From Paenibacillus curdlanolyticus YK9 (lineage in GTDB: Bacteria > Bacillota > Bacilli > Paenibacillales > Paenibacillaceae), in NCBI RefSeq assembly GCF_000179615.1, contig NZ_AEDD01000002.1:124001-188000 (forward strand): a stretch of 64,000 nt of DNA, given 5' to 3'. The notes below the pieces were generated by a model. It was not told the DNA's origin and ran no database searches. It worked only from the letters and a program-made list of their open reading frames with translations. The translations under genes and the position numbers were made by a program. Positions 44,001 to 59,429 of the stretch are shown here, one piece after another (within the stretch, counting starts at the first letter, position 1; each line of letters begins with the position of its first letter).

Positions 44001-45479
44001 ATGTCATTAATTAATGTAACAAACCTAACGTTCGCCTACGACGGCAGCTATGACAACATATTCGAGGACGTGAGCTTTCAGCTCGATACCGATTGGAAAT
44101 TAGGCTTCACGGGCCGCAACGGACGAGGGAAGACGACGTTTCTCAATTTGCTGCAAGGGAAATATGAATTTCAAGGTACGATTTCAGCCAATGTCAGCTT
44201 TGAGTATTTTCCATTCCAAATCGAGGACAGAGCCAAGCTTACGGAGCACATTGTCAGCGACATTGTGCCAGACTACTTGCATTGGATGTTAATGCGCGAG
44301 CTTTCGCTGCTTAAGGTGTCGGAGGATGTGCTGTACCGGCCCTTCGATTCGCTATCCAATGGCGAGCAGACGAAGGTGATGCTAGCCGCCTTATTTTTGA
44401 AGGAAAACAGCTTTCTCTTGATCGATGAACCGACTAACCATCTAGATATTCATGCGAGAAAAATCGTTAGTCAATATCTCAATTCCAAGAGCGGATTTAT
44501 TCTTGTTTCGCATGACCGGGCTTTCCTGGACCGATGCGTCGATCACATTCTGTCCATCAACAAAACGAACATCGACATTCAGCGCGGGAATTTTTCTGAC
44601 TGGTGGGAAAATAAACAGAGGCAAGACAACTACGAGCTGGCGGAGAACGAGAAGCTGAAAAAAGACGTCAAGCGCTTATCTGAGGCAGCCAAGCGAACGA
44701 GCAATTGGTCCGACGAAGTGGAGAAAACGAAGAACGGGACTCGGAATTCGGGTTCGAAGGTCGATAAAGGCTACGTTGGCCATAAGGCTGCCAAAATGAT
44801 GAAACGCTCCAAATCGATCGAACAGCGGCAGCAATCCGCGATTGATGAGAAGTCGCAGCTGCTTAGAAATGTCGAGAAGGCCGATCAGCTGAAAATAAAA
44901 CAGCTTCCGTATCATAATCGGCTGCTAGCCGAGTTCGACCATGTATCGATTTATTACGGCGAGAAAAAGGTTACCTCCGATTTAACCTTTACGATTGAGC
45001 AGGGCGAACGGATCGCGCTCTCGGGCCAGAATGGCTCTGGCAAATCAAGCATTATCAAGCTTTTATGCGGCGAGGATATCCCACATACGGGCACGCTCAG
45101 AAAGGGAAGCCAGCTGAAAATATCGTATGTGTCGCAAGACACCTCGCATCTGCAGGGTAATTTAACAGATTATGCGCGAGCGCATGGCATTGACGAGAGC
45201 CTCTTTAAATCGATTCTAAGGAAGTTAGACTTTGCTAGGGTGCAATTTGAGAAGGATATTGCATCCTTCAGCGGCGGGCAGAAGAAGAAGGTGCTGCTAG
45301 CAAAAAGCCTCTGCGAGTCTGCGCACCTGCATATTTGGGACGAACCGCTTAATTTTATTGATGTGATCTCCCGAATGCAGATTGAAGAGCTGCTGCTCGA
45401 ATACGCGCCAACCATTCTGTTTGTGGAGCATGATAGCGAGTTTTGCAAAAATATTGCTACTAAAGTTGTTAATCTATAA
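44001..45479 (+). CDS. Lsa-type ABC-F ribosomal protection protein
   Basis: A 492-residue soluble protein with two ATPase domains and no membrane segment. Domain 1 has GRNGRGKT, LSNGEQTK and LLIDEPTNHLD; domain 2 has GQNGSGKS, FSGGQKKK and a shifted HIWDEPLNFID. The linker between them (about residues 195-300) is helical and charged (the antibiotic-resistance-domain region). The start MSLINVTNLTFAYDGSYDNIFE is characteristic of the Lsa family, which displaces lincosamides, streptogramin A and pleuromutilins from the ribosome. CAGGGGG precedes the ATG. It is controlled by the attenuator leader upstream. The spectrum cannot be read from sequence. Confidence 0.9.
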   Translation: MSLINVTNLTFAYDGSYDNIFEDVSFQLDTDWKLGFTGRNGRGKTTFLNLLQGKYEFQGTISANVSFEYFPFQIEDRAKLTEHIVSDIVPDYLHWMLMRELSLLKVSEDVLYRPFDSLSNGEQTKVMLAALFLKENSFLLIDEPTNHLDIHARKIVSQYLNSKSGFILVSHDRAFLDRCVDHILSINKTNIDIQRGNFSDWWENKQRQDNYELAENEKLKKDVKRLSEAAKRTSNWSDEVEKTKNGTRNSGSKVDKGYVGHKAAKMMKRSKSIEQRQQSAIDEKSQLLRNVEKADQLKIKQLPYHNRLLAEFDHVSIYYGEKKVTSDLTFTIEQGERIALSGQNGSGKSSIIKLLCGEDIPHTGTLRKGSQLKISYVSQDTSHLQGNLTDYARAHGIDESLFKSILRKLDFARVQFEKDIASFSGGQKKKVLLAKSLCESAHLHIWDEPLNFIDVISRMQIEELLLEYAPTILFVEHDSEFCKNIATKVVNL

Positions 45480-45520: not shown

Positions 45521-45557
45521 TTGATCAATTGCATGTTTTGATAGGTGTATAGTCATA

Positions 45558-45586
45558 TTGCCAATTGTATGATCTTAAGCTAATAT
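45558..45586 (+). promoter_or_regulatory. Promoter P1 of the biosynthetic cluster
   Basis: TTGCCA (45558-45563), 17 bases, TAATAT (45581-45586). The same promoter with the same spacing and similar flanks (CATATTGCCAATTG; AATATTCACT) occurs at 46993-47021, so the element was duplicated with its gene. Confidence 0.75.
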
Positions 45587-45697
45587 TCACTTTAAGTACC
45601 GAGGAAGCCTTTCATATTCGGAAAATTTAAAAGGGCGGTGGATGGCAAGCGCACGAACAACAGTGCTGTATGGAGCAAGAAATGCGTTTTTTTACGC

Positions 45698-45721
45698 AAT
45701 AGCGCAAACGTTTGCGCTATT
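45698..45721. promoter_or_regulatory. 24-bp perfect palindrome in the P1 leader (LacI/CcpA-like operator)
   Basis: A perfect 24-bp palindrome with the core GCGCAAACGTTTGCGC. The central CG with flanking AAA/TTT is typical of LacI-family (including CcpA cre-like) operators. It lies about 112 bases downstream of the -10 and 60 bases before the coding region, so it would block elongation or act as an RNA hairpin. A shorter version (GCAAACGTTTGC) occurs in leader 2. Confidence 0.7.
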
Positions 45722-45780
45722 TTGGATTGATTACGATTACAGACACGAGCAACATGAATTGGCTAAAAGGAGGAGCAGCA

Positions 45781-46899
45781 ATGATGATCAAAACGGAAGG
45801 GCCTTCCGTTAATATTCCCAGCTATGTGTACTGCTTGATTCCTTATATTCACGAGAAGTTAAAGTCGGAAGGATCGGCGAGCGCAATAAGCTTAATGTCG
45901 AATTTGGATCTTGCCGCACTGCCTGCTTACGTTCGCGGAGCGACTTTTGAGTCGGCGAGGACAGACTTTCACATCAAAGGTATTTTCGGTTTCGATTCAT
46001 TTACGAACCTAATGAAGCTCGAATTGATTGAACATCATTACGATTCGTTTGAGTCAGGGCTTGCTAGCATCAATCGTTCGTTTGCAGAGGGGAAAGCCGT
46101 TATTTTGAGCGGAAGCTCCTATCATTTGCCCTATTTTTCCGATTATCATAATCCGTGGTTCATCGATAATTTTGGTTACACCATTAACTCGACGATGTAT
46201 ATTGTTGGAAACCACTGGTTTTCGGTGTATGGGATCGATGAATCCGGCGTTCGCATTTATGATCCTATTCCTAGCAAATTTGCCGGAACGATTCCGATGG
46301 AGGACTTTCGACTCGCATGGGGAGGCAATGGGCTAATCGCCGAGCTAGCTCATAAGAAGGATATTGAAAAGTGTAAGGCCTACGGTCAGCTCAATGTGGG
46401 CGTTGGCCATATTTTCGACCAAACCGAACTGAACGATCTCTTCCTAAGTACGGCCATCACGACGGCAAGCCTCTATTTGAAAGGTGACAAATTTAACTTA
46501 GAGGCGGAGCACTGCTGGTTCGGGCATGCGGCGTTAGCGGAATTTATCTCTGATCTGGAACAGTTAGCTGGCGATAATCGACACGTGCAGCGGATTGAAG
46601 GATGCTTATACTCGATGCGGGTTAACCGGTACCAGATCGGTGATTTGCTGCATGATATGAGGAAACTAGGTCTGATTCCACAAAATATACTAGATGCGTA
46701 TCTGCCGCTTCACAGGAAATGGGAAACGACCTATAACGCTTTTGCGATTAATATGGCTCGGAAGAAGGACGACTTGATTGAACGGACGATCGTGCTTCTG
46801 AAGGAGGCACTAGACATGGAGAAGCATTTGTTTACGCTTCTGTACCGTTATCTTAAGGGAACGCCATTCCTAGCGCGCTCGGCGGGAAGAGGAGAATAA
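45781..46899 (+). CDS. BtrH/AsbE-like acyltransferase, copy 1
   Basis: A 372-residue protein with a C39-peptidase-like N-terminal half. The candidate triad is Cys18 (YVYCLIPY), His145 (GNHWFSVYGID) and Asp161 (YDPIP). The fold resembles BtrH of butirosin synthesis, which moves an acyl group from a carrier protein to an amine, and AsbE of petrobactin synthesis. The C-terminal half is helical and may bind the carrier. The ATG at 45781 follows AAAGGAGGAGC. It is close to the protein at 47221-48342 over its whole length, including the ends. It has its own promoter and terminator, so it is transcribed apart from the main operon. The function is inferred. Confidence 0.7.
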   Translation: MMIKTEGPSVNIPSYVYCLIPYIHEKLKSEGSASAISLMSNLDLAALPAYVRGATFESARTDFHIKGIFGFDSFTNLMKLELIEHHYDSFESGLASINRSFAEGKAVILSGSSYHLPYFSDYHNPWFIDNFGYTINSTMYIVGNHWFSVYGIDESGVRIYDPIPSKFAGTIPMEDFRLAWGGNGLIAELAHKKDIEKCKAYGQLNVGVGHIFDQTELNDLFLSTAITTASLYLKGDKFNLEAEHCWFGHAALAEFISDLEQLAGDNRHVQRIEGCLYSMRVNRYQIGDLLHDMRKLGLIPQNILDAYLPLHRKWETTYNAFAINMARKKDDLIERTIVLLKEALDMEKHLFTLLYRYLKGTPFLARSAGRGE

Positions 46900-46916
46900 C
46901 GGGATATTTCGTTTTT

Positions 46917-46952
46917 AAAACCAGCAGATACTCGATTCTGTTGGTTTTTTTT
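46917..46952 (+). terminator. Rho-independent terminator after copy 1
   Basis: AAAACCAGCAGA (46917-46928) and TCTGTTGGTTTT (46937-46948, one wobble pair), followed by T residues. Confidence 0.85.
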
Positions 46953-46992
46953 AACAAGTATAATTTCTTATTATGTTAGGTACTAGATCATA

Positions 46993-47021
46993 TTGCCAAT
47001 TGCTAGATCTTGAGATAATAT
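46993..47021 (+). promoter_or_regulatory. Promoter P2 driving the main biosynthetic operon
   Basis: TTGCCA (46993-46998), 17 bases, TAATAT (47016-47021). A duplicate of P1. The genes from 47221 to 58025 are tightly packed with no terminator between them, so P2 probably drives all eleven. Confidence 0.75.
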
Positions 47022-47137
47022 TCACTATAAGCACCATGGAAACATTTCTCACTCTGTTATTTTCGTAAAGGTGGAGATTACTAAACCGTGAACAAAAGTG
47101 CTGCATAATGGCAAATCAGTTGTTTTTACTCAAATGT

Positions 47138-47149
47138 GCAAACGTTTGC
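47138..47149. promoter_or_regulatory. 12-bp palindrome in the P2 leader
   Basis: GCAAACGTTTGC, the core of the P1 palindrome, 117 bases after the -10 of P2. The flanks have diverged from those of P1, which suggests that only the core is under selection. Confidence 0.65.
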
Positions 47150-47220
47150 GCGTTTAATGGTATGAAATTGCTCTTGAAAAGCACATAAGCTATGCCATTT
47201 TGAGAAGAGGAGGAGCAATA

Positions 47221-48342
47221 TTGATCGAAACGCAAGAGCTTACCGTGGATATTCCTAGCTATGTGTACTGCCTAATTCCATATATCCATGCAAAGCTAAA
47301 GTCAGAGGGCTCCGCAAGCGCAATCAGCTTATTATCCAATCTGGATTTGGCAGGATTGCCTGCTTATACGCGGGGCGAATCGTTTGACTCGGCGAGAATC
47401 GATTTTCACATCAAGGATATCCACGGCTTCGAGCGGTCAACGAACATCTTGAAGCTCGATATGCATGAGCATAAGCATGATACGTTTGAAGCTGGGCTTG
47501 CAAGCATCAGTCAGACGTTAGCGGAAGGAAAAGCGGTTGTTTTGAGCGGGACCACCTACTGTTTGCCTTATTCATCCGAATATTATAACCCTTCGTTTAT
47601 TGAGACGTTTGGTTATGGGGTCAATGCGACCATGTATATCGTTGGCGATCACTGGTTTTCCGTATATGGAATCGACGAGACGGGCGTTCGAATCTATGAT
47701 CCGATTCCAAACAAATTTACGGGAACGATTCCGTTAGAGGATTTTCGGCATGCATGGGGAGGCAATGCCCTCGTGCCTGAGCTAGCAGATAAGAAGGATG
47801 TCGAAAAATGTACGATTTATGGCCAGCTTGATATTCATGTCGGCCATATTTTCAGCCAAGCTGAGCTCAACGATCTGTTCTTGCGTACGGCCAATACGAT
47901 TACGACTCTTTATTTGAAGGGCGAAAGCTTTAACTTAGGGGAAGAACGATGCTGGTTCGGGCATGCGGCGGTAACGACGTTTATGCATGATTTGGAGCAA
48001 TTCGCAGGCCAAGCTATTCCAGCTGAACGGATTGAAGGCTGCCTCTACTTCATGCGAGTCAATCGCCTGCAAATGGGCGTGCTGCTTACGGATATGAGGG
48101 AGCTTGCGCTCATTCCGCAGGATATCATGGATGCCTATTTGCCACTGCAACGAAAATGGGAGACGATCTATAATTCCTTCGTCATTAATGTAGCGCGTAA
48201 AAGAGCCGATGTCGTTGAACGGACGATCGCATTTTTGAAGGAAGCGCTCGATTTGGAGATGCACTTGTTTATGCGCTTGCAGCTTCATTTGAACGGCACG
48301 CCGCTGCTAGACCGTGCTCCGGCGATAGGGGCAGCAGACTAA
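47221..48342 (+). CDS. BtrH/AsbE-like acyltransferase, copy 2
   Basis: A 373-residue paralog of copy 1 with the same candidate triad: Cys17 (YVYCLIPY), His144 (GDHWFSVYGID) and Asp160 (YDPIP). The TTG at 47221 follows GAGGAGG and aligns with the copy 1 start. It is the first gene of the eleven-gene operon, and the AsbC-like ligase starts one base after its stop. The two copies differ most in the middle third and at the C-terminus, so they may use different acyl groups or acceptors. Acyl transfer from a carrier protein is inferred from fold and context. Confidence 0.7.
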   Translation: MIETQELTVDIPSYVYCLIPYIHAKLKSEGSASAISLLSNLDLAGLPAYTRGESFDSARIDFHIKDIHGFERSTNILKLDMHEHKHDTFEAGLASISQTLAEGKAVVLSGTTYCLPYSSEYYNPSFIETFGYGVNATMYIVGDHWFSVYGIDETGVRIYDPIPNKFTGTIPLEDFRHAWGGNALVPELADKKDVEKCTIYGQLDIHVGHIFSQAELNDLFLRTANTITTLYLKGESFNLGEERCWFGHAAVTTFMHDLEQFAGQAIPAERIEGCLYFMRVNRLQMGVLLTDMRELALIPQDIMDAYLPLQRKWETIYNSFVINVARKRADVVERTIAFLKEALDLEMHLFMRLQLHLNGTPLLDRAPAIGAAD

Positions 48343-48343
48343 T

Positions 48344-49600
48344 ATGTTCATCGTCGACAAAGAACGTTATGACAAAAGCATGCTGGCGCAAAGGCACGAG
48401 GAGCTGGCCAAGCTTCCTCATTTCTCAGCTCCGGAGACGAAGCTGTATGCGATCTGTTTCACGCACCCGTTCGATGTACTCAGTACGGTCCTATACTTAC
48501 GCGAGCGCGGGGGCTCCGTGCTGCTGCTTCATGGGGAAACGCCGTTCGAAGCGGCGCTATCGCTAGCGAATCGTGCTGGCTGTAACGTTCTGCTCCATAC
48601 GAATTGGCGGGAGGCTGTGGTCGTGAGCAAGCCGCAATATGTTGGCGAGCCGTCCTTATGCCAGTTCAGCTCCGGAACGACGGGCGAACCCAAATTAATT
48701 GCGAGACCGTGGCGCGAGGTAGAGCGGGAAATCGAATCGTATAACCTCCGGCTTCAGGCAACGCCCGATGAGCAGCCGATTATTCTCGTACCGGTATCGC
48801 ATTCGTTCGGACTCGTTGCCGGCACGCTTACCGCGCTTGCCAGAGGCGTTGAGCCGATCATCGTCGCGGACAAAAACCCGAAATTTGCGCTTCATTTGTT
48901 GAAAGCTGCCGGACCTTCGATTTTGTACGCGGTGCCGTTTTTGCTGCATCTTATCCAAACGCTTGGCCGAAAGGAGCTTCGCCTCCATAAGCTCATAAGC
49001 TCCGGCGCTCCAATGAGCGAAGCTTTGCTTCACCGTCTGCAAGCTTGCACCGAGCAGGTTTGGCAGCAATACGGTTGTACCGAGGCCGGCTGCATCTCGC
49101 TCGGATCGGATCCGTCTTCGCCTTATGATGTTGGGCAGGTGCTCCCGCATTTGCAAATCGCGCTGCACGAAACCGCTTTAGCGGAAGGTTCGGCGGCGAA
49201 GGAAATCGTCGTATCCACTGGCGATAAATTGATCCATACGCAGGACCTCGGCATGCTGAACCCGCAAGGCAGAATCCAAGTTTTCGGTCGAATGGATGAC
49301 TTGATTAATGTCTCGGGACTTAAAGTGCTGCCATCCGAAGTAGAAGCAGTCATCGAACGACTATCCGGCGTGTCGGAGGTTGTCGTCTGTAAGGCGCGGC
49401 ATCCGGTATGGGGCGAGTCGATTCGAGCGCTTGTCGTTGCCTCGGAGGGGGTAGGGAAAGAAGAAATTAAAGCGTGGTGTTTGCTGCATTTGCCGCCGTT
49501 TAAAGTACCGAGCATCATCGATTTGGTTACATCCATTCCTCGGCTGCCGTCAGGCAAAATAAGCCGAAAATTTATCCAAGAACAGGAGATATCGTCATGA
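48344..49600 (+). CDS. AsbC-like 3,4-dihydroxybenzoyl-AMP ligase
   Basis: A 418-residue adenylate-forming ligase, short for this superfamily but close to the roughly 410 residues of AsbC. Phosphate-loop motif FSSGTTGEPKLIARPW, then PVSHSFGLVAGTLTAL, QQYGCTEAGCISL (A5-like) and the C-terminal hinge GRMDDLINVSGLKVLPSEVE, with the catalytic Lys in LPSGKISRKF. Much of the chain matches what I remember of B. anthracis AsbC, which activates 3,4-dihydroxybenzoate and loads it on AsbD. The likely acceptor is the carrier encoded next, whose ATG overlaps this stop codon (ATGA). Aromatic specificity is inferred. Confidence 0.8.
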   Translation: MFIVDKERYDKSMLAQRHEELAKLPHFSAPETKLYAICFTHPFDVLSTVLYLRERGGSVLLLHGETPFEAALSLANRAGCNVLLHTNWREAVVVSKPQYVGEPSLCQFSSGTTGEPKLIARPWREVEREIESYNLRLQATPDEQPIILVPVSHSFGLVAGTLTALARGVEPIIVADKNPKFALHLLKAAGPSILYAVPFLLHLIQTLGRKELRLHKLISSGAPMSEALLHRLQACTEQVWQQYGCTEAGCISLGSDPSSPYDVGQVLPHLQIALHETALAEGSAAKEIVVSTGDKLIHTQDLGMLNPQGRIQVFGRMDDLINVSGLKVLPSEVEAVIERLSGVSEVVVCKARHPVWGESIRALVVASEGVGKEEIKAWCLLHLPPFKVPSIIDLVTSIPRLPSGKISRKFIQEQEISS

Positions 49601-49866
49601 GCATGGAGAGAGAGCAGAATATCGCTAAACTGAGAGAAGTTATCGTTGAGAATATGAATATTCAAGTGCCTGAGCAATTGAAGGAGTCGGATCGCCTCTA
49701 TCATGATCTGAACATCGACTCGATTATGGTGCTGCAGCTCGTCGTCGATCTGGAGGACGCTTTTGAGGTTTCGGTACCGGAAGAGAATCTGGACCAAGCG
49801 GTCTTCGAAACGGTCGGGACGCTGATTTCCTTCATTGAATCGCTAGTTAGCGCGAAGGTGGGTTAA
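49597..49866 (+). CDS. AsbD-like carrier protein (ACP/aryl carrier)
   Basis: An 89-residue stand-alone carrier protein. The phosphopantetheine attachment serine is Ser42 in DLNIDSIMVLQLV, and the helix IV region FETVGTLISFIESL fits AsbD. It needs activation by a phosphopantetheinyl transferase not seen in this window. It overlaps the ligase gene by 4 bases, so the pair probably acts together: the ligase adenylates 3,4-dihydroxybenzoate and loads this carrier. A second ATG lies two codons downstream. Confidence 0.8.
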   Translation: MSMEREQNIAKLREVIVENMNIQVPEQLKESDRLYHDLNIDSIMVLQLVVDLEDAFEVSVPEENLDQAVFETVGTLISFIESLVSAKVG

Positions 49867-49868
49867 GC

Positions 49869-50129
49869 ATGGTCACCGATCCAAGGCTTCCTTCTCTAAG
49901 ACAAGCTGTCGCTGAATTGTTGGGAAGATCCGATCTATCCCAAACGCTGGACGAGAACGAATCGCTGCAAAGCTTAGGTCTCGACTCTGTAAAGCTAATT
50001 AATCTCGTTATTATGATAGAAAAGCAATATGCGGTCATGTTCGATGATAGCGAGCTGCTCAATGAAAACTTCGATACGCTGAATAAGATTATGGCGAAAA
50101 TCGATGAAAAGGCCGGTGCTCGGGCGTGA
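49869..50129 (+). CDS. Second stand-alone carrier protein
   Basis: An 86-residue acyl carrier protein with the attachment serine Ser40 in LGLDSVKLINLVIMIEKQY. It differs clearly from the upstream carrier, so it is a separate specialised carrier rather than a recent copy. It starts 3 bases after the first carrier and overlaps the glycosyltransferase start by GTGA. Which ligase loads it is not evident; the ligases at 53228 and 55043 are candidates. Confidence 0.8.
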   Translation: MVTDPRLPSLRQAVAELLGRSDLSQTLDENESLQSLGLDSVKLINLVIMIEKQYAVMFDDSELLNENFDTLNKIMAKIDEKAGARA

Positions 50130-51484
50130 GCCTTTTACGAATCGGCTGCGTCGGCGGGCATTCAGGCCGGCTTAATGAACGCGCCATTGACGATCAGTGG
50201 GTTCGATACCTGGGCGAGCATACGGAGCTTGTTCCCATTCCGCCATTAAGCTTTGTTAAATTGTTCGGCGGGCGCGTCGATCGATGGCTGGAGCGGTTTC
50301 CAGAATCGCTGGACAAGCTCGCGGCATCTTTGCAAGAGCTTGCTGAGCGGCATCAAGTGAATACCTTTTATATGAATCTGCCATTTCTGATTCCTTATCT
50401 GCTCATGGCTCGTTCCTATGCGGGGCTCGATATCGGGTTTCTGTTCATTACTCATTCCGTTGGATCGCCGTTCTGGCTGAGGCAATGGCTTGCGGTTGCG
50501 CCATGGCTGACAGAGCGAGACGTGTTGCTGGCAAGCACGCCATCAAGTCGAGAAGCGCTCCTGCAAATTTCTGACCGTTACCAAATGGCAAGCTTGATTC
50601 CGTTATGCATTGAGCAACTTGCTAGCGAAACGACCGAGGCTGCGAGAGCAAGCCGAACGGGCCGCAAGCTTCTCTCGATTGGTCGGTTGGAAGATGTGAA
50701 AAATATCGATGTCCTACTTGAATGTTTTGCCAGCATTCGCGAACATGCGCCTCATGCAGAGCTGCACATTGCAGGCGAATATACGGGCCACTCATCGGAA
50801 CAGATTGAGCGGTATCGGGAGAAGCTAAAGCGCTTGATGGAGAAGCACGAGCTGCAAGACAGCGTAATCTTCCATGGTCCGGTCGAGGGCGAAGCCAAAA
50901 TCGAGCTGTTTCGAACATCCGACCTGCTTATTAATCTATCGACTGATCCCGGTGAAACGTTCGGATTTAACTTGCTGGAAGCCAAAGCATGGGGAATTCC
51001 GGTCGTCTGCACGAATTGGAATGGTTTCCGGGATATTGTGGAGGACGGTGTCGACGGCTTGCTCGTGGATGTCAGCTGGGACGAAGACGACAGCATGCCG
51101 CAGATCGATAACGATCTAGTCATTCATCATACGCTGCGATTGCTGAACCATTCGATTGAGCGGAACGTTTTATCTGCTAATGCCATTAAGGCAGCCGAAC
51201 GTTACGACTACAAACGTATCGTTCCAGAAATCGTTCAAGCGCTTGAGCATGCATCCAAACAGCTTGTTTACCCCATCCGCGATGCTAAAGCTTTAGCCAT
51301 GACCCCGGTAAACGAATTAAGGGAGATTTACCGAAACGAGAATCTTCATCATTTATTATGCATGCTAGAGAAACCGGTTTCCATCGCTTCCGGGCCGATT
51401 GATACCCCGATGCAGGAATGGATGCCGCAGGCCAAAGCGATCATTGCTCATTTTGCAGGGAGGTGCAGTCATGCAAAGCATTAA
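50126..51484 (+). CDS. GT4-family glycosyltransferase
   Basis: A 452-residue GT-B fold glycosyltransferase. The C-terminal nucleotide-sugar domain starts GRKLLSIGRLEDVKNIDVLLECF and ends in the family EX7E motif (GETFGFNLLEAKAWGIPVVCTNWNGFRD). An additional C-terminal extension of about 80 residues follows. No signal peptide or membrane helix, so it works in the cytoplasm. In this operon it would glycosylate the product or an intermediate. The donor sugar is unknown, and no sugar-nucleotide synthesis genes are in the cluster. GTG start at 50126 overlaps the previous stop. Confidence 0.85.
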   Translation: MSLLRIGCVGGHSGRLNERAIDDQWVRYLGEHTELVPIPPLSFVKLFGGRVDRWLERFPESLDKLAASLQELAERHQVNTFYMNLPFLIPYLLMARSYAGLDIGFLFITHSVGSPFWLRQWLAVAPWLTERDVLLASTPSSREALLQISDRYQMASLIPLCIEQLASETTEAARASRTGRKLLSIGRLEDVKNIDVLLECFASIREHAPHAELHIAGEYTGHSSEQIERYREKLKRLMEKHELQDSVIFHGPVEGEAKIELFRTSDLLINLSTDPGETFGFNLLEAKAWGIPVVCTNWNGFRDIVEDGVDGLLVDVSWDEDDSMPQIDNDLVIHHTLRLLNHSIERNVLSANAIKAAERYDYKRIVPEIVQALEHASKQLVYPIRDAKALAMTPVNELREIYRNENLHHLLCMLEKPVSIASGPIDTPMQEWMPQAKAIIAHFAGRCSHAKH

Positions 51485-53231
51485 ATTATTTATGCGCCTA
51501 ACCTCTTACATTAACGTCAATTGGAAGCTGACGAGCTTGGCTTACCTATGCACCATACTGGCGTTAACGTTAAATTTGGCGCAGCCGTTTATTTTCTCGT
51601 ATCTCATTGACGAGGTGTTGATTGCAGGGCATCAAGAGAAGCTAGTTTTCTTGCTCACGTTATTCGGAAGCTTCGCGCTCGGCTCGGTTGTGCTATCGAT
51701 CATTCGCACCGGCCTATTCCGTTACCTCGGCATTCGCCACATGCTGGATTTAAGAGATGTGCTGCTGGCTCATATTCGCAGAATCCCGCTGACGGAGATT
51801 GAGAAGCACGGAGTAGGCAAGTATTCCGCGCTGCTTGGCTGGGATACAGCCTCGATGGGCAATTTCCTCAACCATATCGTTGTTGAAATGGTTACGCAGT
51901 GGTTTACAATGCTGTTCGCGATTTCGATGATCTTCTATATGGACGCGCGCCTCGGGTGGATTACGGTTGCCAGCATCCCTGTGCTGTTGGCGATTCCGCG
52001 AATTTTCGTCAAACCGATGAAAAAATATGCGGACGGCGTACGCTCCCACAATGAAGAGGTAGGCACCTATCTGTATGAAAGCATCGAGGGCTCCAAGGAA
52101 ATCCGAGCATATGGCTTGGAAGGCTGGGAACGCAAAAAAAACCAATCGATGTACAAAGATTTGGTGGCGGTAAGCACCAAAGAGACGTTGTTTCGCATGT
52201 TCTCGGGCCAAACGGGCACGCTCGCATTTAGCTTCATTCTCATCGCGGTATATAGCATGGGAAGCAAGCAGGTTCTAGCGGGTACCTTGTCGGTCGGCAT
52301 GCTCGTAGCAGCTGTTCAATACCTCAACAACGCACTGCAGCCGATTCAAGTGATGAACAATTTCTTCGGCGAAATGCAGCAAAGCGAAGTCGCCATGAAA
52401 CGAATCGAGCAATTCCTCGAATCGCCGGTCGAGCAAGCTGCGCAGCAGAAGAACAAGGCGGTTAGCATTCCTTTCCCTGGAGAGAGCGCAGAGGTATCGT
52501 GCAAGCAGGTCCATGTTTCTTATGAAGGCACGCAAATATTGAGAGACATCGATATTACGGTTCGGAAAGGGCAAGTGGCCGCATTCGTCGGTCCAAGCGG
52601 CTCGGGCAAATCGACGTTGTTTAAAACGCTTGCCGGATTCATGGAAGCAGAGGCAGGCGATATTCGCATCCGCAATCTGCCGATGAACCAGATGAGCCGC
52701 AGCGATTTAACCGCGCATATGGCTATCCTCTCGCAAGACAGCTATTTGTTCTCTGGTACGTTATACGAGAATATCGCCATCGGGCGCTTAGATGCTACCG
52801 AGGACGAGATCAAAGAGGCGGCGCGCTTAGCGAGCCTGCAATCGTTGCTCGATACGCTGCCTAACGGGCTGCAAACGGTCGTGGATCATCAAGGGTTCCA
52901 GTTATCCGGCGGACAACGCCAGCGATTTGCCATCGCGCGCGCGCTGCTGAAGCGTCCAGACATTCTTATTTTGGATGAACCGACCTCTGCGCTTGACCGT
53001 GAGACGGAGGAGCAGGTTATGGTTCAAATCAAACAAGCGATGAAGGGCAAAACGCTGCTGATTTCCACGCATCGGCTCGATATCATCCGCAATGCCGACA
53101 TCATCTATGTGATGGATCAGGGAACCGTGCTTGATTGCGGAACGCATGAGGAGCTTGTCGGACGATGCCGGAAATATGCAGCATTGGTCGCTGGCCAAGA
53201 GCAAGAAGAGCTGCTGGAGAAAATCGGATGA
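51471..53231 (+). CDS. ABC exporter (fused permease and ATPase), likely product export
   Basis: A 586-residue half-transporter that probably works as a homodimer. Six membrane helices occupy about residues 15-310; the ATPase has Walker A GPSGSGKS, signature LSGGQRQR, Walker B ILILDEPTSALD and H-loop histidine in ISTHRLD, all canonical. No peptidase domain is fused to it, so it is not a C39-type bacteriocin exporter. The ATG at 51471 after AGGGAGG overlaps the end of the glycosyltransferase gene, and the next ligase starts in an ATGA overlap. Position inside the operon points to export of the final product. Confidence 0.88.
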   Translation: MQSIKLFMRLTSYINVNWKLTSLAYLCTILALTLNLAQPFIFSYLIDEVLIAGHQEKLVFLLTLFGSFALGSVVLSIIRTGLFRYLGIRHMLDLRDVLLAHIRRIPLTEIEKHGVGKYSALLGWDTASMGNFLNHIVVEMVTQWFTMLFAISMIFYMDARLGWITVASIPVLLAIPRIFVKPMKKYADGVRSHNEEVGTYLYESIEGSKEIRAYGLEGWERKKNQSMYKDLVAVSTKETLFRMFSGQTGTLAFSFILIAVYSMGSKQVLAGTLSVGMLVAAVQYLNNALQPIQVMNNFFGEMQQSEVAMKRIEQFLESPVEQAAQQKNKAVSIPFPGESAEVSCKQVHVSYEGTQILRDIDITVRKGQVAAFVGPSGSGKSTLFKTLAGFMEAEAGDIRIRNLPMNQMSRSDLTAHMAILSQDSYLFSGTLYENIAIGRLDATEDEIKEAARLASLQSLLDTLPNGLQTVVDHQGFQLSGGQRQRFAIARALLKRPDILILDEPTSALDRETEEQVMVQIKQAMKGKTLLISTHRLDIIRNADIIYVMDQGTVLDCGTHEELVGRCRKYAALVAGQEQEELLEKIG

Positions 53232-54814
53232 AGCATGAGTCCCTCTTGCAGTTTTTCAAACGTACCGCTCGTGATGACCGAGGCATTTATTATGAAAGCG
53301 GCGAACCAGCGGTAACGCATTGGATGTCCTACGCTCAGATGGCGGAAGCTGCAGAGCAAATTGCAAATAAGCTGAAGCATCATAAACCGCGTTCCCGCAT
53401 GATGGCGGCGATCTGGATGGAGCAAACGCCGGCTTGCTTTATCGCCTTTATGGCTACCGTGTTTGCGGGCGGCATACCGATTCCGATTCATGCCTATTAC
53501 AAGAAGCATGAGGTTGAACCGATCCTTAGCCGTTTAAAGCCAGATTTTTTGCTGACATCGGCATCACGGAGCGCCGAATTTTTGGGAGAGAAAGGCGAGG
53601 GGCTTTCATCAGGACTGGCAGATGGTCCCTTGCTTGTTGATGGGGAAACGGGAGACTCGCTCGGAACGGAGCAGGCACATGTGCAATCAAGCTTAGATGC
53701 CGAGAACGGCTTCCAAGCGCCGCCGGATACCGCTGTCATCTTTCTATCGTCCGGCTCTACGGGCGTCCCGAAGGGGATTATGCTGAGCCATCGCAACCTT
53801 ATATCCAATGTTGATGCAATACAAGGCTATTTGAAACTGACGCCCGAGGATCGGGTGCTGATCGCCAAATCATTCGGGTACAGCTCTACCATTACGGGAG
53901 AATGGCTGCTCGCATTGGAGGCGGGCGCCACGATCAATCTCACGCAGGGCATTTTTCATCCGCTGCAGCTCGTTCGGTTGATTCGAGATTACAAAACGAC
54001 GTTTCTCTGTACGGTCCCATCGGTGCTCGTTCCGCTGTTGAAGACCAATCGCTGGGACCCGGAAGCGCTCCGAAGCTTGCGACAGCTGATCGTCGTTGGC
54101 GGACCGGTGTCGCCTGAGCATCTTGTCAGCTTGCAGAAGCTGCTGCCATGGACATCGATCATGCCTTGCTATGGCCAGACCGAAGCGTCACCGCGGGTGA
54201 CGTACTTGCCCGCACATCGGCTTGCCGATAAGCCGCAATCTGTGGGCATTGCAGTGGATGGCGTTGAAATTAGCATTTATTCCAATGGCATTCGGGCAGA
54301 AATCGGCGTGATCGGCGAGGTTGTCGTTAAGGGCCCTAACGTTATGCTTGGCTATTGGGACGACCCGGCCGCCACTTCAGCCGTCTTGTCCGAACATGGA
54401 TTATGTACGTCCGATATGGGTTATCTCGACGAGGAAGGCTTCCTCTTTATTGCCGGGCGTAAGGATAATGCGTTAAATGTAGGCGGACATACGTTTTTTG
54501 CGGAAGCGGTAGAAAAACAGCTGTCTGAGCATTCGCTTGTACAAGAAGCGGCAGTGGCGGGCATTACCGATTCCGTGTGGGGGCAGCGGCTTGTTGCCGT
54601 CATCGTAGCGGATCTGTCTTGCATGGATGCAGAGCAGGCGAGAAGCGAATTGTTCGCGTTTTGCCAGACGCAGCTGACCTCCGTACAACGGCCCAAAGCG
54701 ATCTACATTGCCGAGCAGCTGCCCAAGACGACAACGGGAAAGCTTGACCGCAAAGCATTGCAATCCATCGTTAAGGAGTGGGAATATGCAGCAAACAACA
54801 GCACACGAGCTTGA
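53228..54814 (+). CDS. AMP-dependent acyl ligase (second adenylating enzyme)
   Basis: A 528-residue adenylate-forming enzyme of the fatty acyl/aryl-AMP ligase type. The motif VIFLSSGSTGVPKGIMLSHRN is a clear phosphate loop, followed by MPCYGQTEASPRVTYL and DMGYLDEEGFLFIAGRKDNALNVGGHTFF, with the catalytic lysine in TTTGKLDRKAL. It should activate a carboxylic acid as an acyl-AMP and load a carrier. The next gene encodes one and overlaps it by 29 bases, so the pair is probably dedicated. The substrate is not deducible; fatty acids, amino acids and aryl acids are all possible. Confidence 0.85.
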   Translation: MKHESLLQFFKRTARDDRGIYYESGEPAVTHWMSYAQMAEAAEQIANKLKHHKPRSRMMAAIWMEQTPACFIAFMATVFAGGIPIPIHAYYKKHEVEPILSRLKPDFLLTSASRSAEFLGEKGEGLSSGLADGPLLVDGETGDSLGTEQAHVQSSLDAENGFQAPPDTAVIFLSSGSTGVPKGIMLSHRNLISNVDAIQGYLKLTPEDRVLIAKSFGYSSTITGEWLLALEAGATINLTQGIFHPLQLVRLIRDYKTTFLCTVPSVLVPLLKTNRWDPEALRSLRQLIVVGGPVSPEHLVSLQKLLPWTSIMPCYGQTEASPRVTYLPAHRLADKPQSVGIAVDGVEISIYSNGIRAEIGVIGEVVVKGPNVMLGYWDDPAATSAVLSEHGLCTSDMGYLDEEGFLFIAGRKDNALNVGGHTFFAEAVEKQLSEHSLVQEAAVAGITDSVWGQRLVAVIVADLSCMDAEQARSELFAFCQTQLTSVQRPKAIYIAEQLPKTTTGKLDRKALQSIVKEWEYAANNSTRA

Positions 54815-55046
54815 AGCAAAAGTGAAGAGTATTCTTGCTGATATTTTAAAATGCCAGGCCGCCACGATTGAGGCAGACGCTAATCTGACGACTGATCTTG
54901 GAATGGATTCGATCCAGTTTCTCGACATGTTGGCGAATCTGGAGGAGCAATTCGGCTTTGAGCTTGATGTTGACGATATGCATCCTGACCGCTTCCAATC
55001 CGCGCAAGCGATCATTCGCTTTATTCAAGGGAGAGCAACGGCATGA
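54786..55046 (+). CDS. Third stand-alone carrier protein
   Basis: An 86-residue acyl carrier protein. The attachment serine is Ser42 in LGMDSIQFLDMLANLEEQF. It begins inside the last 29 bases of the ligase gene, with AAGGAGTGG as ribosome binding site, and its stop overlaps the next start (ATGA). It is the expected partner of the 53228-54814 ligase, and possibly of the 55043 ligase too. Confidence 0.82.
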   Translation: MQQTTAHELEAKVKSILADILKCQAATIEADANLTTDLGMDSIQFLDMLANLEEQFGFELDVDDMHPDRFQSAQAIIRFIQGRATA

Positions 55047-56185
55047 TTTCGTCGCCACCTTCCGTAGAGGAAAAGCTGCAAGGCCTCGTGCAAGAGCTTG
55101 TTCAGCATTATCCCTATTACCAGGCACTCGACAGGGAGTCGCTGCCGTTTCACGAGCTGCCGCTTATCGATAAACGCATGATTAATGAGAACCGCGAGCA
55201 ATTCACGCGAGCGATGTCGGAACCAACGGTTGAATCGTTCACTTCAGGAAGCACAGGCATTCCATTTCGCTGCATCAAAACGGTAAAGGAGCAGGCGGAG
55301 CTGTCAATGGCTATCCAGCGGCAGCGCCTAAAGTGGGGGCTGCCGATGCGATACCGTTCGGTGCTGCTTGGCAACTCGCTTTATGCTGAGCCGCGCATGG
55401 TTTCCTCCTTTGCCTATCAAATCGAGCGAAATGCACCGCATATGATCCAAGGACGCTGCTCTGCGCTTTACTTGGTCGCCTGCTATATGGCCGAGAAGGG
55501 GCTCAACGTGCCGGACAGCCTGCGATTCGTTCAAAATTGGGGAGAGCTCATTCAACCCGTGCAGCGCCAAAAAATCGAAGAGGTATTCGGTGTTCCTCTG
55601 CTCGATTATTACGGCATGGAAGAGCTTTGGCTCATTGCCTTCACGAACAAGGACAAGCAGCTCCAAATCAACGAGCAAAGCGTGTATATGGAGGTGCTGG
55701 ATCCGCTTACGGGCCAGCCGCTGCCAGAGGGCGAAGCGGGAGACTTAGTCGTAACTTCCTTCGTGATGAAAAGCACGCCATTCGTGCGGTACCGGACGGG
55801 AGATTTGGGCCGGCTGAAGCGTGATGCCGAGAACAACCTGATCTTGGAGCTATTGCCGTTCCGCGGCTCCCAAATCATTTTGCCCGATCGATCCGTATCG
55901 CCTTCGATCTTCCGTTACCTGGATCAGTTCTATAAGCAGCTGGCTGAAGATTCCGGGATGAAGCAGTTCCAGATGGTGCAGGAAACGTATACGACATTCC
56001 GATTGCGCATCGTGGCCGATGAGGTGCAAGACGAGGTGCTGCATGATGCGGCGCTTAAATTGGAAACGCTTCTTAAGCAGTGCCTGCTTACCGATCAGGC
56101 GAGCATCGTGATCGAACGCGTCGCAGCGATACCGCCGCATCCGGTCAGCGGGAAATTCCAGCCTTTTGTCAGCATGGTGTCTTAG
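55043..56185 (+). CDS. PaaK/AMP-ligase-like enzyme (third adenylating enzyme)
   Basis: A 380-residue adenylate-forming enzyme of the phenylacetate-CoA-ligase (PaaK) type, a little shorter than the usual 430. The phosphate loop is VESFTSGSTGIPFRC, then DYYGMEELWLIAF and the hinge VRYRTGDLGRLKRD. The C-terminal catalytic lysine would be in HPVSGKFQPF, near the very end. Such enzymes activate aryl or acyl acids and can load stand-alone carriers. It is flanked by the third carrier and the third BtrH-like gene, which suggests that it supplies an acyl group to them. Confidence 0.8.
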   Translation: MISSPPSVEEKLQGLVQELVQHYPYYQALDRESLPFHELPLIDKRMINENREQFTRAMSEPTVESFTSGSTGIPFRCIKTVKEQAELSMAIQRQRLKWGLPMRYRSVLLGNSLYAEPRMVSSFAYQIERNAPHMIQGRCSALYLVACYMAEKGLNVPDSLRFVQNWGELIQPVQRQKIEEVFGVPLLDYYGMEELWLIAFTNKDKQLQINEQSVYMEVLDPLTGQPLPEGEAGDLVVTSFVMKSTPFVRYRTGDLGRLKRDAENNLILELLPFRGSQIILPDRSVSPSIFRYLDQFYKQLAEDSGMKQFQMVQETYTTFRLRIVADEVQDEVLHDAALKLETLLKQCLLTDQASIVIERVAAIPPHPVSGKFQPFVSMVS

Positions 56186-56212
56186 ACGAGGGAGCGAAAG
56201 GGGAAAACGGGT

Positions 56213-57172
56213 ATGAAAAAAAGGGTAGCCCCTGACGAAATCATAAAGCTGGCGGCAATGGAATGCGCCGCTTCTTGCATCACGACGGCTCTAAATTTGT
56301 TCGGCTGCGATTACCGTTATTTTTTGCTCGGTTATTGGAATTTAACGTATTACGCCGGGACGCTAATGTCAGGCAAGCATGTTCGCCAGCTTGATCTCGA
56401 ATCGGTTTTCGGCATTCAAAAAACGCTCCATGCAGGATCGGCAGTGAGCCTTCGGGAGTCCTTGGATGAACAGTCGATCGTGCTTATGCTGTGCCATGCG
56501 TCCAAGCTTGATTTTTTCCCAAGAAACGAGCTGTCGCTTGAAGCCGAAGGCTTCCAGCATTATATATTGATCTACGGCTATGACGCTGTGTCCAAGCAGT
56601 ACCTGATCATTGATCCGATTGCCGATTATATCGGCGGGATGACGGAGGAGGCATTATACGCGAGCAGCGTCCGTGAAGATCTGCGGTACTATCGCTTGGT
56701 TTTCCCGACGGATAGGCAGCAACCGGATCATCTGGCAATCATTCGGATGGAAACGGAGCGTAATTTGTCCTGTTATACGTTGGATGAAGCAAATGCCGAA
56801 GGCAATGCAATCGATCAATTCAGCATCGATTTGACAGCCATGGCGGAGCGTCCCGTAGACGAGCGCAATGCGTGGATCGACCGGAACAACATTTCGATCT
56901 CTTCGGTCATTAAGAGCAGAGGCTTGATCGGCGAAATTTATCGCTCGTTTCATTTGTTGGAGGAGGAAGACTTGCGTCATTATGCCAGCTCGATCGACCA
57001 GATCATCAAGCTATGGACGACAGTCAATTTCCTGCTCATCAAATTTAAACGCAACCCTGCGCAGGCGGGACTAACCGATTCGATACGCCAACGGCTTGAA
57101 GCGGTGAAAGCATTAGAGAAAGCGTTTCTCGATTTCCTGCATCTGAAGGGGCGTGAACGGATTGAAGTATAA
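56213..57172 (+). CDS. BtrH/AsbE-like acyltransferase, copy 3 (diverged)
   Basis: A 319-residue protein with a C39-like N-terminal half: Cys18 (AMECAASC, with Cys22 near it), His116 (FQHYILIYGYD) and Asp134 (IIDPIAD). It is only distantly related to copies 1 and 2. In position it matches AsbE, which precedes asbF in petrobactin loci and transfers the 3,4-dihydroxybenzoyl group to an amine. The C-terminal half is helical and charged. It starts 27 bases after the ligase, following GGAGCGAAAGGGG. The acyl acceptor is unknown. Confidence 0.65.
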   Translation: MKKRVAPDEIIKLAAMECAASCITTALNLFGCDYRYFLLGYWNLTYYAGTLMSGKHVRQLDLESVFGIQKTLHAGSAVSLRESLDEQSIVLMLCHASKLDFFPRNELSLEAEGFQHYILIYGYDAVSKQYLIIDPIADYIGGMTEEALYASSVREDLRYYRLVFPTDRQQPDHLAIIRMETERNLSCYTLDEANAEGNAIDQFSIDLTAMAERPVDERNAWIDRNNISISSVIKSRGLIGEIYRSFHLLEEEDLRHYASSIDQIIKLWTTVNFLLIKFKRNPAQAGLTDSIRQRLEAVKALEKAFLDFLHLKGRERIEV

Positions 57173-58025
57173 CCTGTGTACGATTTCCTTTCGCCATCAG
57201 CTTGTCTCGTTACGCGAGTTAGTTGTTTTTGCGAATAAAACGGGTTATACCGGAATCGAGCTATGGGGCGTGCATGCCCGCTCGCTCATTCGCCATGATC
57301 CAATCGGATTAGCCCGATTGGTGCCGGAGATGCAGCGTCTTCAGATTGAAGTGGGCATGATTAGCGATTATCTTGACCTGCTGACGCCTGAAGGCTTCGA
57401 AGAGCAGGAAGCCAAGTGGAAGGAGCTGCTTAGCTTAGCCCGCTTGTTCCAAACGAACAAGCTGCGGATTTTTGCCGGCAACCGGGCAAGCGAATCGGCG
57501 TCGAGGGAGGAATGGGAGCGCTGCATGAAGCGGCTTCGCGATTTGGCGGATATGTCGTCAGCGTACGGCATCTACCTGATCGTCGAAACACATCCGATGA
57601 CCTACGCCGATTGTTTGCCATCCGTCCTTAAGCTGTTGGAAGATACCGATCATCCGTATATTCGGCTGAATCTCGATTTTCTTCATATGTGGGAAGCAGA
57701 CTGCTCGCCAGAGGAGGCTTATCGAAAGCTTAAGCCTTGGGTTCACCATTTTCATTTCAAAAATGTCCGCGACCGCGATAGCCTGAGCGTGTTCGCTCCG
57801 GATAATGTCTATTCGCCAAGCGGACATCGGCAAGGAATCGTCTCCTTAAGTGAAGGCGCGCTTTCCTTCTCAGAGATCGTGAAGCTGCTGGAGCTGGACC
57901 AGACGCCATTTTCCGCTTCGATTGAGTGGTTCGGGGACGATCCTTACCATCAGTTGAAGGAAGAAATGCGTTGGCTTAGGCAGGTAGAGGATGAAATCGG
58001 AAAGACCGTGACGCGAATCGGTTAA
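57162..58025 (+). CDS. AsbF-like 3-dehydroshikimate dehydratase
   Basis: A 287-residue TIM-barrel protein whose start (KYNLCTISFRHQL) and GIELWGVHA, MISDYLDL and FQTNKLRIFAG segments match what I remember of AsbF. The metal-binding residues are in place: Glu in VETHPMT, Asp in LNLDFLHMWE, His in HHFHFKN, and Glu in ASIEWFG. AsbF converts 3-dehydroshikimate to 3,4-dihydroxybenzoate. I prefer the TTG at 57162, 9 bases after AAGGGGCG, because it yields the family's MKY start; a GTG at 57153 is possible. It is the last gene of the operon and overlaps the previous one by 11 bases. Confidence 0.85.
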   Translation: MKYNLCTISFRHQLVSLRELVVFANKTGYTGIELWGVHARSLIRHDPIGLARLVPEMQRLQIEVGMISDYLDLLTPEGFEEQEAKWKELLSLARLFQTNKLRIFAGNRASESASREEWERCMKRLRDLADMSSAYGIYLIVETHPMTYADCLPSVLKLLEDTDHPYIRLNLDFLHMWEADCSPEEAYRKLKPWVHHFHFKNVRDRDSLSVFAPDNVYSPSGHRQGIVSLSEGALSFSEIVKLLELDQTPFSASIEWFGDDPYHQLKEEMRWLRQVEDEIGKTVTRIG

Positions 58026-58046
58026 GCTGCGCTGAATGAAACGAAC

Positions 58047-58086
58047 AACCCCGTACTCCGGCCAGACCGGAGGCGGGGTTTCTGTT
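58047..58086 (+). terminator. Strong terminator ending the biosynthetic operon
   Basis: AACCCCG (58047-58053) and CGGGGTT (58074-58080) around an inner CTCCGG/CCGGAG stem, followed by TTCTGTTT. Confidence 0.88.
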
Positions 58087-58166: not shown

Positions 58167-59429
58167 ATGGAACACCATGTGCTGCAAGCCATAGCTAGAC
58201 TAGCTAGGACTTACACGGGACCGGAAGAAGCGACAAGCGTCATGGAAAGAGCGAGTAAATCGCGTTTTGTTTTATTGGGTGAAGCATCGCATGGCACATC
58301 TGAATTTTATACCGATCGTGTTGCATGGTCCAAGCAGCTCATTACCGATCACAAGTTTCGGTTTATTGCGGTTGAGGGAGATTGGCCTTCTTGTTACACC
58401 TTGAACCGGTATGTCAAAGGCTATTCCAATACAGGGGATGACGTGCGCGACGCCTTGCAGGATTTTGTCCGTTGGCCGTCCTGGATGTGGGCAAATCGCG
58501 AGATTGCCGAATTGGCGCAATGGCTTCGAAGCTATAATGCCGACAAGGCGGATGCAGAGAAGGTCGGATTTTATGGCCTGGATATGTACAGCCTGTGGGA
58601 ATCATTGGATGAGATTATGAAGTATCTCGAATCGAAGCCGGGTTCAGATTTGGAAGCTGCCAAACGAGCTTTTGAGTGCTTTGAGCCGCATGGCAGAGAT
58701 GAGCAGCGATATGGCGTATCCGCATCCTTGTATGGTGAAGGCTGCCACGGGGAGGTTGTGGATTTGCTTCGCACGCTCCAAAACAAGTGGAAGGAAGTAG
58801 GGCAGGATGATCGGGAGAAAGCGCTGAGCGCAGAAATGAATGCACTCGCCGTGCAGGGGGCCGAGGCTTATTATAGCACAATGATCCGGCATGATGCGGA
58901 GTCTTGGAACATTCGAGATCGCCATATGGTCGAAGCGTTAGCGAAGCTGATGGCGTTTCACGGCAATGAGGCTCGCGCCATTGTTTGGGAGCACAATACG
59001 CATATCGGCGATGCCCGATGGACGGATATGGCGGAAGAAGGCATGGTGAATGTAGGTCAGCTGCTGCGCGAGAAATATAATGAAGAGGTTTTTGCAATCG
59101 GTTATGGCACGTACCAAGGCACCGTCGTAGCCGGAAGATCATGGGGAGCGCCGCTGTCCGAAATGAAGGTTCCTAAAGCGATTTCGAACAGCTGGGAGGA
59201 GCTCCTTCATCGGTCAGGAGCCGAGGATAAGATTCTTTTATTCGATAAGCGCGCGAAGGAGCTAGATGAAGTCACACTCGGCCACCGGGCGATCGGCGTC
59301 GTCTATCATCCGGAACGCGAACGAGGCAATTATGTGCCAACCGTTATTTCGAAGCGATATGATGCGTTTATTTACTTTGATCAGACGCATGCATTGACAC
59401 CTTTGTCTAAAATGGTCGTACACCCTTAG
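58167..59429 (+). CDS. Erythromycin esterase-family hydrolase
   Basis: A 420-residue enzyme of the EreA/SucA-like family. FVLLGEASHGTSEFY carries the catalytic His-Gly-Thr region, followed by FIAVEGDWPSCYTLNRYV, GFYGLDMYSLWES and AIVWEHNTHIGDARWTDM. Ere enzymes open the lactone ring of 14-membered macrolides, but many chromosomal family members act on unrelated substrates. The start is the ATG at 58167; GAGAGGGAAAG lies upstream. It follows the biosynthetic operon after a strong terminator, so it is a separate unit. Its link to the cluster or to macrolide resistance is unproven. Confidence 0.85.
   Translation: MEHHVLQAIARLARTYTGPEEATSVMERASKSRFVLLGEASHGTSEFYTDRVAWSKQLITDHKFRFIAVEGDWPSCYTLNRYVKGYSNTGDDVRDALQDFVRWPSWMWANREIAELAQWLRSYNADKADAEKVGFYGLDMYSLWESLDEIMKYLESKPGSDLEAAKRAFECFEPHGRDEQRYGVSASLYGEGCHGEVVDLLRTLQNKWKEVGQDDREKALSAEMNALAVQGAEAYYSTMIRHDAESWNIRDRHMVEALAKLMAFHGNEARAIVWEHNTHIGDARWTDMAEEGMVNVGQLLREKYNEEVFAIGYGTYQGTVVAGRSWGAPLSEMKVPKAISNSWEELLHRSGAEDKILLFDKRAKELDEVTLGHRAIGVVYHPERERGNYVPTVISKRYDAFIYFDQTHALTPLSKMVVHP

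Follow-up and report, generated by a model that had tools for sequence, protein, structure and literature searches.

A window of 64,000 nt from the genome of Paenibacillus curdlanolyticus YK9 (contig NZ_AEDD01000002.1, positions 124,001 to 188,000; coordinates below are those of the window) was inspected for the genes of a putative biosynthetic operon. Twelve genes, all on the + strand, were found to span positions 45781-58025; the host genome is 5.4 Mb in size. They code for three adenylate-forming ligases, three stand-alone carrier proteins, a family 4 glycosyltransferase (GT4), an ATP-binding cassette (ABC) exporter, an AsbF-type dehydratase and three acyltransferase-like proteins containing a Cys-His-Asp triad. 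A prediction made earlier from the sequence alone (hereafter the original prediction) had described these parts as an eleven-gene operon, but the parts it listed sum to twelve. All of them were detected where it had placed them by a domain scan, and homologues in Paenibacillus sp. MMS18-CY102 and syntenic relatives in 26 named loci speak against a chance arrangement. The genes, named BtrH1, BtrH2 and B to K, and the signals that accompany them are as follows:

45540-45780, + strand: promoter and leader of BtrH1 (aligned with the upstream regions of BtrH2 and of MMS18-CY102)
45781-46899, + strand: BtrH1, putative stand-alone BtrH_N/C39-like acyltransferase, 372 aa (Pfam PF14399; conserved triad)
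46975-47220, + strand: duplicate promoter and leader (second GCAAACGTTTGC at 47138-47149)
47221-48342, + strand: BtrH2, tandem paralogue of BtrH1, 373 aa (PF14399, 27.2 bits)
48344-49600, + strand: B, AsbC-type aryl-adenylating ligase, 418 aa (NF006167; identity to the genome's own AsbC; tree)
49597-49866, + strand: C, AsbD-type carrier, 89 aa (PF00550; PRK07639; identity to the genome's own AsbD)
49869-50129, + strand: D, second stand-alone carrier, 86 aa (PF00550)
50126-51484, + strand: E, GT4 glycosyltransferase, 452 aa (Glycos_transf_1; family marker for finding relatives)
51471-53231, + strand: F, MsbA-type ABC exporter with transmembrane and nucleotide-binding domains, 586 aa (ABC_membrane and ABC_tran)
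53228-54814, + strand: G, adenylate-forming ligase, 528 aa (AMP-binding)
54786-55046, + strand: H, third carrier protein, 86 aa (PP-binding)
55043-56185, + strand: I, short adenylating enzyme resembling PaaK/phenylacetate-CoA ligase, 380 aa (core motifs intact)
56213-57172, + strand: J, predicted C39-fold amide-forming acyltransferase, 319 aa (AlphaFold2, Foldseek, HHalign)
57153-58025, + strand: K, predicted AsbF-type 3-dehydroshikimate dehydratase, 290 aa (match to PDB 3dx5; motifs)
58068-58084, + strand: terminator-like hairpin 3' of K (consensus scan only)

Position 45558, previously taken as the start of the operon, is not a gene start; it belongs to a promoter-like element located ahead of BtrH1 (TTGCCA and TAATAT separated by 17 nt, 45558-45586). 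From BtrH2 (TTG at 47221) to K the genes were as tightly packed as had been proposed, the successive gaps being 1, -4, 2, -4, -14, -4, -29, -4, 27 and -20 bases when start codons were chosen by ribosome-binding-site context. BtrH1 (ATG at 45781) is separated from BtrH2 by a 321-base spacer in which the promoter region recurs as a homologous copy. The scan with Pfam and NCBIfam profiles detected three AMP-binding and three PP-binding domains, Glycos_transf_1, ABC_membrane plus ABC_tran, AP_endonuc_2 and, with weak scores, three BtrH_N domains. A D-S-[IV] attachment motif was present in each of the three carriers. In agreement with the original prediction, none of the twelve proteins contained a condensation domain of nonribosomal peptide synthetases (NRPS), a ketosynthase or a citrate-condensing IucA/IucC synthetase domain. 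A pathway of the NRPS-independent thiotemplated type is characterized by ligases and carriers that stand alone, with no condensation domains, and this domain content supports the ligase-carrier-acyltransferase logic suggested earlier.

Each of the genes has a homologue in MMS18-CY102, with 67-83% protein identity. The rate of nonsynonymous substitution (dN) was 0.10-0.22 and that of synonymous substitution (dS), where not saturated, 0.8-1.9, which indicates purifying selection on every gene. Since dN is far below dS, these are real, maintained genes. The operon might nevertheless be what is left of a petrobactin-like cluster, decaying or chimeric and without a product; the window lacks both DUF6005 and the amino-sugar genes found in many relatives (see below). 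However, none of the twelve genes is disrupted, their translation is coupled and purifying selection acts on all of them, and the same reduced layout is found in the sister species MMS18-CY102, the nearest relative, which has a single BtrH copy with BtrH1 in place. A remnant is thus very improbable.

A gene for an Lsa-family ABC-F ribosomal protection protein lies directly upstream of the operon (44001-45479; 759 bits, cut-off 750), and is likewise located upstream in MMS18-CY102 (86%). An erythromycin-esterase-family gene lies downstream (58167-59429) and is not shared.

The putative 3,4-dihydroxybenzoate cassette and the acyltransferase-like proteins

The same genome contains a separate petrobactin-type operon, asbA-asbB-asbC-asbD-asbE-asbF, located at C33. 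The products of three genes of the window resemble components of this operon: B is 42% identical to AsbC, C is 43% identical to AsbD, and K is 43% identical to AsbF. B scored 464 bits against NF006167 (cut-off 513) and C scored 78.1 bits against PRK07639 (AsbD; cut-off 100). Both are homologues of the AsbC and AsbD proteins of a petrobactin-type NRPS-independent siderophore (NIS) locus, although below the NCBIfam equivalog cut-offs. K matched the solved structure of AsbF (3dx5) with an E-value of 3.9e-76, and retains the ETHP, NLDFLH, HFHFK and EWF segments, which we take to carry the metal ligands of this fold. By these sequence features K is predicted to be a 3-dehydroshikimate dehydratase of the AsbF type. 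The proposal that the operon supplies and activates 3,4-dihydroxybenzoate is thus well in line with the similarities of B, C and K.

The remainder of the petrobactin machinery was not found alongside these genes. The operon contains no IucA/IucC synthetases equivalent to AsbA and AsbB, which are present elsewhere in the genome, at C33. AsbE has been modelled as DUF6005 (PF19468; PMC11317620), and no protein of the window scored above the cut-off for this family; J reached 23.8 bits (cut-off 25) and gave no blastp match to the genome's own AsbE. With HHalign, J and DUF6005 appeared as distant relatives (98.5% probability, E 1.5e-15). J was therefore rejected as an AsbE orthologue, and the AsbE-like protein of the original prediction had to be reassigned.

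The fold of J pointed to a different group of enzymes. Its AlphaFold2 model was of high confidence (predicted local distance difference test, pLDDT, 90.5; predicted template modelling score, pTM, 0.89), and residues Cys18, His116 and Asp134 were invariant in 21 sequences. The best match found by Foldseek among PDB structures was CtaG, from the closthioamide pathway (9qvj; E 6e-9; TM-score about 0.67-0.71), followed by AziU3/U2 and CcbD; phytochelatin synthase and C39 peptidase domains were far behind. As judged from this model, J is a C39-fold enzyme of the CtaG type. BtrH1 and BtrH2 are tandem paralogues (67% identical), and Cys17, His144 and Asp160 were invariant in the BtrH1/BtrH2 alignment. 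Against PF14399 (BtrH_N), BtrH1 scored 24.1 bits and J 19.7 bits, so that, together with BtrH2, all three lie below the cut-off of 29.7. Profile comparison related J to the BtrH1 family with 96% probability. Sequence profiles relate the J, DUF6005 and BtrH1 families to one another, and a Cys-His-Asp set is conserved in all three.

A fold check of the three C39-like proteins had been suggested earlier. It bore out the expectation for J. The AlphaFold2 model of BtrH2, built from a three-sequence alignment, had a pLDDT of 49.6 and was unusable for a fold search. The BtrH1-family profile gave weak matches (E 0.015-0.03) to C39 chains, in their His-Asp region. Because the structure model is poor, the C39-like fold of BtrH1 and BtrH2 is a putative one drawn from sequence profiles. 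The presence of three proteins of each kind had been regarded as meaningful. However, BtrH1 and BtrH2 are a tandem duplicate that includes the promoter, and the closest relative has one copy; an ancestral three-of-each design was therefore discarded.

BtrH-like proteins carrying a C-terminal carrier domain are encoded in the same genome (L100, 9010-10449) and in a relative (L099, 9048-10466). In both cases the fusion gene is grouped with two others, for an adenylating ligase and a putative esterase, in a run of three. In locus L098, a BtrH1-type gene overlaps a gene for a D-like carrier, and a gene for an amino acid:carrier ligase lies in the same gene run. The P. curdlanolyticus genome also contains a second NRPS-free cluster (L074; C37:455000-472000), in which genes for three BtrH-like proteins lie together with those for an ABC transporter, a ligase and several stand-alone carriers.

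Related loci

Some 30 other bacteria have a related operon. A search with a GT4 profile identified 26 named loci besides the window, in Paenibacillus, Cohnella, Fontibacillus, Longirhabdus, Fictibacillus norfolkensis and one Spirochaetales metagenome bin. No close GT4 relative was found among plasmid records. With the window included, B, C and E were present in all 27 loci, J in 26, AsbF in 24 and an exporter within reach in 22; the GT4 enzyme and the exporter travel with the operon. For G, H, ligase 30 and DUF6005, the profiles behind the final count table also matched relatives, and the best-hit gene map was used for these. In this map DUF6005 was present as a best match in 21 of the 27 loci, the exceptions being the window, MMS18-CY102, L037, L044, L057 and L059. 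In a tree of AsbC-type ligases, petrobactin AsbC and the ligases of three NIS-free loci (L055, L058 and L060) grouped on one side of a branch with 98/94 support; B of the window lay beyond this branch, with the remaining NIS-free GT4 loci.

The genes that might provide an acceptor differed among loci. Sixteen loci had a gene pair for a Gfo/Idh/MocA dehydrogenase and a DegT aminotransferase, in most cases located between C and GT4. The solved structures nearest to this aminotransferase include the C3 sugar transaminases QdtB, WbpE and NtdA. Kanosamine (NtdA/NtdC) was considered as the specific amino sugar of these relatives and found not to be supported, the aminotransferase being nearer to other C3 sugar transaminases, and to one entry for a scyllo-inositol transaminase, than to NtdA. 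Other loci contained an ATP-grasp protein and a pyridoxal phosphate (PLP)-dependent decarboxylase, or a D-like carrier together with a BtrH-like protein and an amino acid:carrier ligase. D-like carriers adjoin genes of these last two kinds in L098, L053 and L038-L045. The block formed by ligase G, carrier H, PaaK-like I and J was recurrent, and could be replaced by an arrangement of J, a carrier and a ligase. These gene maps indicate that the acceptor side is variable and the 3,4-dihydroxybenzoyl side nearly constant. Elsewhere in the P. curdlanolyticus genome, the best match to the DegT acceptor gene was partial (37%), and a homologue of the amino acid:carrier ligase was present (35%).

In P. 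caseinilyticus, the GT4 gene lies within a petrobactin operon (L056, 290-12401), the order being asbA (59% identity), an IucD-like monooxygenase (a label read from the sequence), a major facilitator superfamily transporter, asbB, asbC, asbD, asbE, GT4 and asbF. In genome G123 (L117), GT4 adjoins asbE in an asb context. Its location inside these operons ties GT4 to the 3,4-dihydroxybenzoate cassette, and suggests that the enzyme may use the 3,4-dihydroxybenzoyl unit, or the amide formed from it, as its substrate.

The presence of GT4 together with an MsbA-type exporter could also be explained if no free metabolite were made and the operon instead decorated a cell-surface polymer or glycolipid, using Dlt-like ligase-carrier activation together with GT4 and a flippase of the MsbA type. 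Ligase G resembles the exosortase-A-associated ligase TIGR03098 and the decarboxylase of the relatives resembles TIGR03099, both families being named for polysaccharide clusters. Yet neither a membrane O-acyltransferase nor a lipid-carrier glycosyltransferase nor a polymerase is encoded in the operon. The AsbF-type enzyme and the amide-forming C39 enzymes would indicate small-molecule amides, and the distribution of the loci is very patchy. Surface decoration is therefore quite unlikely.

Promoter region and Fur box

Upstream of both BtrH1 and BtrH2 lies a perfect 12-base palindrome, GCAAACGTTTGC (45704-45715 and 47138-47149). The two copies are located 65-71 bases ahead of the respective genes, and the position is the same in MMS18-CY102. 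By consensus only, the palindrome would be LacI/cre-like. It occurs ten times in the genome (sites L136-L145), versus zero for a reversed control pattern, and was also found at L035:7023. Several copies lie 35-95 bases upstream of operons that look like specialised-metabolism operons. As read from the sequence, other copies precede an NRPS-sized operon, an 820-aa oxoamine-synthase-like gene and an operon for a heptose-type sugar that includes two ABC exporters. This hints at a LacI-type regulator that might be shared by these operons.

A different picture was obtained for Fur. The genome's own petrobactin operon, used as a positive control, has a perfect Fur box (TGATAATGATTATCA, at L073:18350). 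No Fur box with two or fewer mismatches was detected in the window, nor in 24 of the 26 related loci. The consensus scan likewise failed to find one at the P. caseinilyticus petrobactin locus, so for other species the consensus may be too strict, or the box may lie outside the stretch, and its absence there is not decisive. These results bear on the possibility that the operon makes a siderophore, a glycosylated 3,4-catecholate that would complement petrobactin under iron scarcity. The homology of B, C and K to AsbC, AsbD and AsbF and the presence of GT4 in real petrobactin operons are in its favour, and a product with at least two 3,4-dihydroxybenzoyl groups would chelate iron. But petrobactin genes are already present in the genome, and no siderophore-uptake family was found among the flanking genes sampled. 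Because the Fur box is absent here and from nearly all relatives while a perfect one precedes the own asb operon, an iron-starvation siderophore is unlikely, and the idea of iron limitation in the original prediction has no Fur box to support it here. A specialised metabolite not regulated by Fur is a more likely product than a housekeeping siderophore.

Elsewhere in the window, two adjoining DUF11-repeat proteins of 2237 and 561 aa are encoded on the minus strand (17754-26149).

Proposed pathway and known systems

Gene identities, catalytic motifs, operon layout, conservation and the fold of J were established from sequences and models. They suggest, with a probability of about 0.7, that the operon codes for a carrier-based pathway free of condensation domains ('NRPS-independent thiotemplated'), whose product would be an exported and probably glycosylated 3,4-dihydroxybenzoyl amide. 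In such a pathway, K would convert 3-dehydroshikimate into 3,4-dihydroxybenzoate, which B would adenylate and load onto carrier C. G and I would activate one or two further acids, presumably loading them onto H, D or both. J, BtrH1 and BtrH2 would each take an acyl group from a carrier onto their own Cys and pass it to an amine to form an amide, by analogy with what has been proposed for CtaG, CcbD, AziU3 and BtrH. Gene neighbourhoods suggest that D may work with BtrH1 and BtrH2, and H with J. As AsbE is absent, the unloading of C, if this carrier is used as in petrobactin synthesis, must fall to J or a BtrH protein; J and BtrH1 are the possible candidates. E, a predicted GT4 enzyme, would glycosylate the aryl amide or its acceptor with a sugar, and F is predicted to export the product. 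What results is probably a multi-amide that is glycosylated and bears one or more 3,4-dihydroxybenzoyl groups.

Some observations weigh against this proposal. BtrH1 and BtrH2 score below the Pfam cut-off, and a poor model was obtained for their structure. Three relatives retain B and C without AsbF, so the substrate of B may not be 3,4-dihydroxybenzoate in every case. Finally, the window contains no acceptor gene, neither for an amino sugar nor for a decarboxylase.

A broader and more tentative reading, which we would hold somewhat less probable than its opposite, is that the loci represent a widespread, undescribed Paenibacillaceae family of modular small-molecule pathways, for which a petrobactin-type 3,4-dihydroxybenzoyl cassette and a dedicated GT4 were recruited to interchangeable amine scaffolds to give exported, glycosylated, non-Fur catechol amides. 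If so, the scaffold would be an amino sugar in some species and decarboxylated or ATP-grasp-ligated amines in others, and GT4-bearing petrobactin operons such as that of P. caseinilyticus would yield glycosylated petrobactin. The operon connects petrobactin chemistry with glycosylated natural products in a way that can be tested. The hosts of the cluster family are soil bacteria that can be cultured, many being type strains, and the natural swaps of modules (DUF6005, J, BtrH, amino acid:carrier ligase) could show which C39-type transferase serves which carrier. The view of the operon as undescribed was supported, no cluster of this make-up having been found in a literature search that covered mainly freely accessible papers.

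Among known systems, BtrH of butirosin, CcbD of lincosamide and AziU3 of azinomycin synthesis offer an analogy in their C39-like enzymes, carrier-bound acyl groups and amine acceptors. The acceptor is an amino sugar for CcbD and an aminoglycoside for BtrH. The window differs in that scaffold genes for an aminoglycoside or lincosamide are absent, and in that its BtrH_N matches lie below the curated cut-off. With petrobactin asbABCDEF the operon shares the AsbC-, AsbD- and AsbF-type proteins and the adjoining position of B and C. It differs from petrobactin, and from the rhodopetrobactin and methylolanthanin relatives, in lacking IucA/IucC, a DUF6005 AsbE and a Fur box; beyond petrobactin it adds GT4, the exporter, two more ligases, two more carriers and transferases of the J and BtrH types.

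The closthioamide (cta) pathway of Ruminiclostridium cellulolyticum shares stand-alone ligases and carriers and a substrate of the hydroxybenzoyl type. CtaG has been proposed to act as a peptidyl transferase, handing 4-hydroxybenzoyl on from carrier to carrier within an NRPS-independent pathway described as 'unusual thiotemplated', and CtaD and CtaF have ATP-grasp and decarboxylase counterparts in relatives of the operon (PMC6772006). No AANH domain such as that of the thioamidation enzyme CtaC was present among the twelve proteins; unlike closthioamide, the operon includes AsbF, GT4 and an ABC exporter. CtaG and J are only about 12% identical in sequence, but they have the same fold, and the C11, H128 and D144 residues of CtaG (mutated in PDB entries) follow the Cys-His-Asp order seen in J. 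If the pathway proposed here operates, the small set of condensation-domain-free carrier pathways, namely closthioamide, lincosamide and the butirosin side chain, would broaden into a wide family.

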